NCBI GenBank assembly: GCA_026985075.1
Contig: JALSQX010000053.1
Location: 218,773-282,772 of the forward strand
Source: Blastocatellia bacterium
GTDB taxonomy: Bacteria > Acidobacteriota > Blastocatellia > HR10 > J050
Length of the DNA: 64,000 nucleotides
Direction: 5' to 3'
This document shows, one piece after another, positions 40,813 through 43,885 of this stretch. The notes under the pieces were generated by a model. It saw nothing but the letters and a program-made list of their open reading frames with translations. It searched no databases and was not told where the DNA came from. A program made the translations under genes and the position numbers. Each line of letters begins with the position of its first letter. The first letter of the stretch is position 1.

Positions 40813-41571
40813 TCAACTATACAAACTCATCGGGCGGGTGAGCAGAGCGACGGGATCGTCCACGTTCAGCGCCTGCCGAACATAAAATGCCTCGCCATGC
40901 TCAACGTCGATCAATGCTCCGTAGTAACGCTGCCGCGCTTCAACGCGTCGGAGAAAGCTCTCGGTGCTGATGAGCGTCTCCGGTTCGGGACTCCCTGGAT
41001 TGTGAAGTTGCGAGGCATACGATTGAATCACGGCCAGTTTCTCCTCGGCGAAAGCGCTGATATCGACGATGAAGCTGGGCACGAGCTTGTGAGGGAGCAA
41101 AAAGTAGGCGACGACGTGGGGGCGATGCCGGCCCAATCCAGCTTGCGCATCGAATTTGATGAGCCCGGCCAGATGAGCCGCCTCGGTGACGATGCGGCTG
41201 GTGTGCGCGTGATCGGGATGGGGATCGTCCCAGTAGTGGGTGAAGATCACCCGGGGGCGATGACGACGAATCGCCCGAACGACGGCAGTACGGGCGGCAT
41301 CGCTCAGGAGAATGTGACCGTCGGGCAGTTCCAGATTCTCGCGCACGATGACTTTCAATCGCCGGGCGGCTTCGGCGGCTTCGCGCGCTCGAATTTCGGG
41401 CGTCCCGCGCGTGCCCAATTCTCCTCGGGACATATCGACGATGCCCGTTCGATAGCCTTTGGCCGCCAGCTTCAACAGTGTGCCGCCCACGCAGAGCTCG
41501 ACGTCATCGGGATGAGCGCCAATGGCTAAGACGTCCAGAGGAGCTTCGTTCATCGCTGACTTCTCGGTCAT
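40813..41571 (-). CDS. bshB1: Bacillithiol biosynthesis deacetylase BshB1-like (PIG-L family)
   Basis: This is a 252-residue protein. H20-P-D-D23 in [46 protein letters not shown] and H118-P-D-H-A-H123 are the zinc ligands and catalytic Asp of LmbE/PIG-L deacetylases. The opening stretch is the characteristic wording of BshB1, which removes acetyl from GlcNAc-malate in bacillithiol synthesis. The start is ATG 41,569-41,571, overlapping the GT2 stop as TGATG, so the two are translationally coupled. bshA and bshC are not in the window, so bacillithiol production is inferred only. Confidence 0.87.
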
Positions 41572-42572
41572 CACGAATGATTCCATGAGGTGATCGCGCG
41601 TTCATCAGCGACCGGCTGATCGGAGAAATTGAGCCGGGTCTTCACGATGTAAATCGGCTTATTCTGCGATTCGTGATACGTGCGCACCAGAATCTCGGCG
41701 ATGAGTCCGAGCAGGAAGAGCTGAATGCCCAACACGAACATGATCATCGCCAGCATGGTCAGCGGCGTCCGTATGAAACTGGTGCCTAATACCAGCTTCT
41801 GATAGATGGCTCCCACGCTGGCCAGGAAGGCCACGCCAAAGGCCAGCATCCCGGCCGTACCGAAGATATAGAGCGGTTTGGTCATGTAACTCATCATGAA
41901 CTTGATGGTGATCAAATCATAGATGACTTTGATCGTTCGCTTCAATCCGTACTTGGACTGGCCGGCGTGGCGTCGATGATGCTGCACCGGGAGTTCCACC
42001 ACGCGCCCCCCCATCCACGACGCGTAGATGGGGATGAAGCGATGCATCTCACCGTACAGGCGCACCGTCTTGAGCACATCCCGGCGATAGGCCTTGAGGG
42101 TGCAGCCATAATCGTGGAGCTTGACGCCGCTGATGAGCGAGATGAGCTTATTGGCGATTATTGAAGGCAAGCGACGAGTCAACCACTTATCTTTTCGCTG
42201 TTGACGCCAACCGCTCACCACGTCATATCCCTGCTCCAGTTTTTCGATCAATCGGGGGATATCGGCCGGGTCATTCTGCAGATCGGCATCCAAGGAAACC
42301 AGCACGTCTCCTCGGGCGGCATCGATGCCCGCCGCCATGGCCGCCGTCTGTCCATAGTTGCGACTCAATTGCAGAACCTTCACGCGGGGATCTCGCTCGG
42401 CGAGTTGCCGCATGATGTGAAAACTCCCATCGGTGCTCCCATCGTCGATCAAGATGATTTCATAGCTCACGGCCAACTGCTCGAGCGCTTGACACAACTT
42501 TTCGTAAAGGGGTTGCAGATTCTCCTCTTCGTTGAACACGGGAATGAAGACCGAGACATACGGACGTTCCAT
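41571..42572 (-). CDS. GT2-family glycosyltransferase with two C-terminal membrane helices (GtrB/ArnC-like)
   Basis: This is a 333-residue protein. The catalytic domain has [26 protein letters not shown], and the DxD-type [45 protein letters not shown] leads into two helices ([24 protein letters not shown] and [22 protein letters not shown]). This is the layout of polyprenyl-phosphate glycosyltransferases such as dolichyl-phosphate-mannose synthase homologues, GtrB and ArnC. It moves a sugar onto a lipid carrier at the inner membrane. It is first in a coupled operon with bshB1 and cutA. The promoter lies almost on the start codon. Confidence 0.9.
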
Positions 42573-42689: not shown

Positions 42690-42985
42690 CTCGTCTCCGG
42701 AGTCCCTGGCGCTCCTCACTTCGCAACTCCCACCTGACCCCTCCCCGCGGGCCAGCCGCGGGGCCTCCCGAAGGTGGAAAAGCCCCCAAACTCGCTGCTC
42801 ACCTGACCCCTCCCCGCGGGCCAGCCGCGGGGCCTCCAGGGTGGGGTGGAACCTCTCCGCTCAGGCCCCGGAACTCGCCTCCGGGGTCCTTGACGCTTGT
42901 CAGCTACCTGACCGTCGCTCACCTCCTCCTCTGAAAGCCCCGGAGCTCGCCTCCGGGGTCCCTGACGCTCCTCGCTATGAGACTC
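42690..42985 (+). repeat. Composite hairpin repeat block 4
   Basis: Two nearly identical type-A hairpins (CCCCGCGGGCCAGCCGCGGGG near 42,744 and 42,809) and two type-B hairpins (GCCCCGGAACTCGCCTCCGGGG near 42,863, GCCCCGGAGCTCGCCTCCGGGG near 42,937). The tail CGCTCCTCGCTATGAG at about 42,965-42,981 recurs in blocks 1 and 3. It lies between divergent genes. Confidence 0.8.
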
Positions 42986-43058: not shown

Positions 43059-43088
43059 TTGACGACGAGCATGCTTCGTCCGTAAAAT
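43059..43088 (+). promoter_or_regulatory. Sigma-70 promoter of the selenoprotein gene
   Basis: TTGACG (43,059-43,064), an 18-base spacer and TAAAAT (43,083-43,088), each one base off consensus. The predicted start of transcription is near 43,095, about 44 bases before ATG 43,139, which also has an AAGGAGGGG ribosome site at 43,128-43,135. Confidence 0.7.
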
Positions 43089-43138
43089 TCTCTTCTCCAT
43101 GATGGATCACGCTGGCCATATCTGTTGAAGGAGGGGTG

Positions 43139-43885
43139 ATGAAACCACGGCTTTTCTATCGCCCGGGCTGAACGTCCTGCGCCAAAACGAAAGAGTTACT
43201 TTCGTCATGGAACATCGACTACGAAGCGATCAACGTGGAGGCCGATGAGCGTGCGCGCGAAGAGCTTCGACGACTGGGAGTCGCTCTGGCCCCAGCCGTG
43301 GTCATCGGCCATCGAGTCGTTCAAGGCTGGCAACCGGAGATGCTGGCCGACCTGTTGGGCATCTCTTACCACGATGAGCCACGACTCAGTCCAGAGACGC
43401 TGATCGCGCGATTGGATCGCATCCTCATCGCCGCCGAGCGAGCTATCGGCCAGATTCCCGATGCGCAACTGGACACGAAACCGCCGGAAGGCAATCGAAC
43501 GGTTCGCCATCTGGCGCACCACCTCTTCCGACTGGTCGCCGCTTTTGTGGACAGCATCCGAGAGAATGCCTTCCCCGAAGACTGGCTGCTGGAAGAAGCG
43601 CCGCCACAGATGCACACGACGGCGCAACTGGTGGCGTATGGAGCCGAGGTTCGCCGGCAACTGGCCGAGTGGGTGGACACCGCTCCCGCCGACGCCTACG
43701 AGCGAACCGTGATGACCTATTACGGCGAGCAGTCGGGCCATGCCCTGCTGGAACGCACCACCTGGCACGCCGCTCAGCACCTGCGTCAACTGTATGCGCT
43801 GATGGAGAGGATGGGTATCCGCCCCGAGCACCTCCTCGACCCGGCCGACCTGGAAGGACTCCCCCTCCCTCGCTCCATCTGGTAG
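43139..43885 (+). CDS. Selenocysteine-containing glutaredoxin-DinB fusion (in-frame TGA at codon 11)
   Basis: Translation from ATG 43,139 (AAGGAGGGG site) reads MKPRLFYRPG, then TGA at 43,169-43,171, then TSCAKTKELLSSWNIDYEAIN and a long open frame to TAG 43,885: 248 residues if TGA is read as Sec. Residues 1-75 follow the glutaredoxin pattern: F-Y-R-P-G, U11-T-S-C14 in place of CxxC, YEAINVEADERAREEL, LAPAVVIGHRVVQGW and LADLLG. Residues about 85-240 are DinB-like, helical with TVRHLAHHLFRLVAAFVD and ERTTWHAAQHLRQLYALMERMG histidines. A hairpin of bacterial SECIS geometry follows the TGA. Without readthrough an open frame from GTG 43,235 would lack the redox centre and any ribosome site. Selenocysteine genes themselves are not in the window. 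Alternative: a nonsense mutation of Cys. Confidence 0.83.
43169..43210 (+). promoter_or_regulatory. UGA codon and candidate bacterial SECIS hairpin
   Basis: After UGA (43,169-43,171) come 16 bases, then stem ACGAAAG (43,187-43,193), loop AGTTA (43,194-43,198) and CTTTCGT (43,199-43,205), seven perfect pairs. After a 2x2 internal loop, CCA (43,182-43,184) pairs with TGG (43,208-43,210). The loop starts 22 bases after UGA and has G as its second base, meeting the published constraints for bacterial SECIS elements bound by SelB. Confidence 0.75.

Follow-up and report, generated by a model that had tools for sequence, protein, structure and literature searches.

Gene organization and expression signals at the locus

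The DNA analyzed here, referred to as the window, is a stretch of 64,000 nucleotides from a Blastocatellia bacterium (contig JALSQX010000053.1). It contains a gene of 248 codons whose product is made up of an N-terminal glutaredoxin domain and a C-terminal DinB/YfiT domain, and whose reading frame is interrupted by a single TGA. The features of the locus, numbered from the first base of the window, are as follows:

40813-41586, minus strand: bshB1, bacillithiol biosynthesis deacetylase, a nearby gene that is not an operon partner (TIGR04001, 255.4 bits against a cut-off of 182.5)
43059-43088, plus strand: sigma70-like promoter TTGACG-18-TAAAAT (consensus match only)
43128-43136, plus strand: ribosome-binding site AAGGAGGGG (read from the sequence)
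43139-43885, plus strand: predicted selenoprotein gene, 248 codons, one in-frame TGA, stop codon TAG at 43883-43885 (full-length homologues, residues 1-248)
43148-43366, plus strand: glutaredoxin (NrdH/YruB-like) domain, residues 4-76, with U11, C14 and the conserved P52
43169-43171, plus strand: UGA codon for the predicted Sec11, which opens the UxxC redox motif (all full-length homologues inspected have TGA or a Cys codon here)
43182-43210, plus strand: SECIS-like hairpin, core stem 43187-43193/43199-43205, loop 43194-43198, G at 43195
43235-43885, plus strand: truncated ORF of the standard ORF list, with an internal GTG start and the redox centre lost
43382-43846, plus strand: DinB/YfiT (S-transferase-like) four-helix domain, residues 82-236
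43520-43522, plus strand: His128, equivalent to YfiT His67 (alignment to 1rxq)
43766-43780, plus strand: His210 and His214 (HxxxH), equivalent to YfiT His160 and His164 (alignment to 1rxq)

The ribosome-binding site precedes the start codon ATG at 43139, and the sigma70-like site upstream of it shows 10 of 12 matches, compared with 0.1 expected in shuffles. Both signals had been proposed in a preliminary description of this DNA and are present. Codon 11 (context FYRPG-U-TSC) is the sole stop codon inside the frame, which is otherwise open to the TAG, and it occupies the first catalytic position of the glutaredoxin motif, as that description had claimed. It had also anticipated that an automatic caller would choose an internal GTG. 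Because the standard ORF list starts the gene at precisely such a codon, GTG 43235, the Sec form of the fusion is likely cut off by annotation pipelines.

Conservation of codon 11 across homologues

A scan of genome contigs yielded 41 relatives of the fusion. Codon 11 was compared in 40 copies that are full-length or nearly so, the window gene among them, from Acidobacteriota, Rokubacteria, SAR324 and Pseudomonadota. It reads TGA in 28 copies, TGC in 10 and TGT in 2, with no other codon present. The closest comparison is provided by a copy from the same genus, which is 93% identical to the window gene over all 248 residues. The two genes differ synonymously at 49 codons and non-synonymously at 17, and both have the TGA.

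A second search, covering the phylum of the Rokubacteria matches, detected the fusion family in 51 of 95 genomes. A single in-frame TGA is present in each full-length copy, an additional TAG occurs in one incomplete copy, and the matches without a TGA span the DinB part alone. All 30 loci inspected from this search have TGA at codon 11, many of them from the same species as in the first contig scan and others new. In both sets, homologues therefore carry only Sec or Cys codons at this position, which is the outcome that the preliminary description had proposed to look for. The in-frame UGA thus aligns with the Sec or Cys of its homologues, as would be expected of a candidate selenoprotein gene. 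The observation holds well beyond chance, and sequencing error, raised earlier as an objection, is excluded by the independent genomes bearing the same TGA.

The carriers of the selenoprotein fusion are soil and groundwater bacteria belonging to several phyla. In a tree of 35 proteins, the arrangement of Sec and Cys forms needs three changes. The copies from Acidobacteriota, Rokubacteria and SAR324 in this tree are all Sec forms, and Pseudomonadota include both forms in a region of weak branch support. Homologues of the C-terminal domain alone (model positions about 75-245) were found in five genomes of the Rokubacteria phylum (G487:C6, G488:C21, G438:C96, G489:C109 and G486:C182), four of which also carry the fusion.

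A true stop or a sequencing error at the UGA would reduce the gene to a shorter DinB protein from GTG 43235, left over from a decayed fusion. Standard ORF calling yields exactly this gene and some Rokubacteria have DinB-only relatives, but the idea is hardly credible: independent genomes of four major groups preserve the UGA together with the codons ahead of it and the glutaredoxin residues around it, codon 11 is never anything but TGA or a Cys codon, and the Sec/Cys motif, invariant in the family, is missing from the truncated ORF.

A SECIS-like hairpin follows the in-frame UGA

Bacterial SECIS-like features consist of a hairpin right after the UGA with a G in a small apical loop (PMC1088965). 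The window gene has such a structure. More specifically, the core hairpin ACGAAAG-AGTTA-CTTTCGT at 43187-43205 consists of a seven-pair stem, which begins 15 bases past the UGA, and a five-base loop with G in second position, located 22 nt from the TGA. Three outer pairs lengthen the hairpin to 43182-43210. Every element of the hairpin described previously is present, and the structure is kept in the TGA copies.

Across 23 TGA copies, 93.7% of the pair cells hold standard pairs, compared with 39-56% when the partners are slid and with 30.0% for the same structure in 12 Cys copies. Furthermore, two pairs show compensatory changes (22-34 from A-U to C-G, and 23-33 from A-U to G-C). The change at 22-34 alters two amino acids jointly, Lys to Arg together with Ser to Ala, a pattern that selection for RNA pairing would be expected to produce. 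In three Pseudomonadota TGA copies, the core stem has 7, 6 and 4 of its 7 pairs. At the register of the window, no more than 4 of 7 pairs form in the TGA copy L074.

Taken alone, the window hairpin is only moderately unusual. Seven Watson-Crick pairs at the hairpin register arose in 36 of 20,000 synonymous recodings of the window gene, and its folding energy, matched by 17% of such recodings, is not distinguishing on its own. No Rfam model matched the window at gathering thresholds, and Rfam hence lends no support to a SECIS element. What decides the case is conservation, with codon 11 restricted to TGA or Cys codons and the hairpin found in TGA copies only.

Selenocysteine-decoding machinery

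The preliminary description had suggested a search for the Sec machinery in the same genome, and all four components were found there: selA (577 bits), selB (371 bits), selD (369 bits) and a tRNA-Sec with the anticodon UCA (72.8 bits), the set that a bacterial selenoprotein calls for. The selD gene (L099, G000:C33:250191-251117) has an in-frame UGA of its own in an N-terminal GAG-U-ACK motif and represents a second selenoprotein of the genome. By our own count, 25 of the 27 genomes carrying the TGA form have SelB above the cut-off, versus 4 of the 12 carrying the Cys form. SelB was not matched within the E-value limit applied in two TGA-bearing genomes (G421 and G437), perhaps because these MAGs are incomplete.

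Decoding of the UGA as Cys or Trp, or its readthrough, without selenium would fit the fact that Cys is the sole alternative residue at codon 11; it is nevertheless highly improbable given the complete Sec machinery of the window genome and a SECIS-like hairpin that follows TGA and not Cys codons. In addition, 13 of 20 homologous genes terminate in TGA, so UGA is not a general sense codon and still works as a stop. From the combined sequence evidence, SelB and tRNA-Sec almost certainly insert selenocysteine at the UGA at 43169, assisted by the hairpin just downstream.

Domain architecture and predicted fold

Both domains named in the preliminary description were correctly recognized, each scoring above its Pfam cut-off: Glutaredoxin (PF00462) over residues 5-61 with 48.7 bits (cut-off 22.9) and DinB_2 over residues 99-218 with 41.4 bits (cut-off 24.8). 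The more specific models stay below their cut-offs, namely NrdH-redoxin TIGR02194 (47.2 bits against 85.75), YruB glutaredoxin TIGR02196 (56.3 against 88.55) and the bacillithiol S-transferase (YfiT/BstA) model NF009807 (18.2 against 160). No NCBIfam model, those for DinB included, reaches its cut-off with the window protein.

An AlphaFold2 model built with 35 homologues as input has a mean pLDDT of 93.6 and a pTM of 0.91. Residues 1-76 of the model resemble NrdH-like redoxins and the Bacillus BC3987 redoxin (3zit, Z 14.2, rmsd 1.3 over 76 residues). For residues 81-234, the resemblance is to DinB/YfiT proteins, the best solved match being 6iz2 (Z 16.7, rmsd 2.2 over 144 residues). Structural matches of the DinB part also include the mycothiol S-transferase 8f5v and mycothiol-dependent maleylpyruvate isomerase. 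By sequence, the closest solved structure is 7c10, a glutaredoxin. The C-terminal domain is thus confidently modeled as a DinB/YfiT fold.

In the family alignment, C/U11, C14, P52, H128, H210 and H214 are invariant. Across the four major groups, 16 residues are invariant, including some in an LPLPxxLW-like tail at the C-terminus. The C/UxxC motif and conserved proline, together with the score above the curated cut-off, place the N-terminal domain among the predicted PF00462 glutaredoxins. Likewise, the fold and the three putative metal-binding histidines of the C-terminal domain agree with membership in the DinB/YfiT (STL) superfamily. The histidines of the YfiT triad presumably bind the metal in bacillithiol transferases, enzymes that EDTA inactivates (PMC5815605).

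Relation to known selenoproteins and DinB proteins

As a whole, the fusion gene very probably encodes a selenoprotein that combines a Sec11 redoxin with a DinB/YfiT domain. The selenocysteine-glutaredoxin-DinB reading of the preliminary description is therefore supported, and each of the objections that it named was tested and failed to overturn it.

Glutaredoxins with Sec were already known from the Sargasso Sea survey (PMC1088965). Like these proteins (PF00462; the Sargasso Sea and Clostridium oremlandii glutaredoxins), the window protein has Sec as the first residue of UxxC, a glutaredoxin fold and a hairpin just past the UGA. Unlike them, described as small, it continues into a C-terminal DinB/YfiT domain. 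With the DinB/YfiT (STL) proteins BstA/YfiT, mycothiol S-transferase and mycothiol-dependent maleylpyruvate isomerase it shares the fold and the His triad, whereas the N-terminal selenol redoxin sets it apart from these members. The Cys-form fusion of Pseudomonadota is a full-length homologue with 31-41% identity, but it has TGC or TGT in place of the Sec codon and lacks the hairpin. One natural Cys orthologue is that of Ramlibacter monticola.

No family with a DinB domain appears among the 119 prokaryotic selenoprotein families and subfamilies compiled in 2026 (PMC13188914), and the open-licence literature gave no relevant hit that pairs DinB with selenoprotein or selenocysteine. Plasmid-borne relatives are annotated as 'DinB family protein' or 'glutaredoxin domain-containing protein', so the fusion as such has already been met by annotation pipelines. 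The new part is the DinB fusion of a known kind of Sec-glutaredoxin, absent from the one published catalogue checked.

With this gene, selenoproteins gain a well-supported architecture, one that standard gene callers shorten and that roughly half of the genomes searched in one phylum contain. The fusion ties selenium to the DinB thiol-transferase superfamily, few of whose natural substrates are known, and its Sec and Cys orthologues form a natural set for asking what selenium contributes.

Small free-standing glutaredoxins with an in-frame TGA at the UxxC position (e.g., FTQPGUPPC and YTGDAUMAC) were also observed in the phylum of the window organism (L020, L022, L025, L027, L028, L029, L030 and L034, also L019 and L031), where Sec-glutaredoxins look common.

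Proposed mechanism

In the N-terminal NrdH/YruB-type glutaredoxin, Sec11 and Cys14 would form the catalytic pair. By analogy with YfiT/BstA, His128, His210 and His214 of the DinB domain may hold a divalent metal and activate a low-molecular-weight thiol, allowing this domain to attach the thiol of the cell to an electrophile or protein, or to strip it off. In this scheme, the reductant of the mixed disulfide or of the oxidised thiol would be the Sec-redoxin domain of the same molecule. The selenylsulfide would be resolved by Cys14, and recharging of the redoxin would fall to a thioredoxin reductase or to the thiol pool. Provided that Sec is inserted in the living cell as predicted, we tentatively regard this joint action, in which the DinB domain handles a metal-activated thiol and the redoxin reduces mixed disulfides or oxidised thiol, as the most likely function. 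It is the fusion of the two domains that suggests their cooperation.

The main rival holds that the domains do not cooperate, one being a general NrdH-like disulfide reductase and the other an independent DinB S-transferase or a mere binding scaffold. We consider this a real, if somewhat doubtful, option. The resemblance of the glutaredoxin domain to NrdH/YruB and BC3987 speaks for it, as do the existence of DinB-only homologues and the different thiols found among carriers. On the other hand, the fusion has been preserved over four major groups with its 16 invariant residues and C-terminal tail, and the overall confidence of the model is high, both of which speak against it. A more intimate version of the joint mechanism appears unlikely: a previously unrecognised selenoprotein family in which the selenol redoxin and the metal-thiolate transferase form one catalytic unit, the Sec passes its thiol adduct straight to the metal site of the DinB domain or takes it from there, and the Rokubacteria protein serves another low-molecular-weight thiol.

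Low-molecular-weight thiols of the carriers

DinB transferases serve producers of glutathione, bacillithiol and mycothiol (PMC4360819). The preliminary description had linked the fusion to bacillithiol-type chemistry, and the genomes bear this out in part. BshC is encoded in the window genome, in its same-genus relative and in a Terriglobia genome, and BshB1 is encoded within the window. No GshB match was found in these three genomes, which makes a dependence of the window protein on glutathione doubtful. Bacillithiol is therefore probably the thiol partner in the window organism.

The link does not extend to the whole family. All 14 Pseudomonadota genomes matched in the GshB search are fusion carriers with GshB above the cut-off. 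The Rokubacteria and SAR324 carriers (G402-G422, G437 and G438, without G405) have no BshC and, where tested, no GshB or MshC above the cut-off. A specifically bacillithiol-linked enzyme, as suggested by these Bsh proteins and by the role of YfiT/BstA as a bacillithiol transferase, is thus a fair conjecture short of a probable one, applicable to the window organism; because of the Pseudomonadota and Rokubacteria/SAR324 carriers, the family is not tied to bacillithiol, and the link cannot hold across all of it. These findings turn attention to the low-molecular-weight thiol of Rokubacteria.

Mycothiol was considered as well. The MshC model has matches in all genomes, probably cysteinyl-tRNA synthetases, and as all of them lie below the cut-off, mycothiol is not supported as the thiol.

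Gene neighbourhood

Gene neighbourhoods compared across the lineages differ and revealed no common partner and no clear substrate. In some Rokubacteria, an enoyl-CoA hydratase gene lies just upstream of the fusion gene and a methyltransferase gene downstream. In part of this group (L056, L057, L059, L060, L062, L068 and others), genes for a GAF-domain histidine kinase and an enoyl-CoA hydratase are located directly upstream.

In the window, the intergenic region at 42731-42960 contains repeated GC-rich palindromic units, with CCCCTCCCCGCGGGCCAGCCGCGGGG occurring twice and a CCCCGGA.CTCGCCTCCGGGGTC-like unit twice. These units look like REP-type elements, and a similar unit is found upstream of the same-genus copy.
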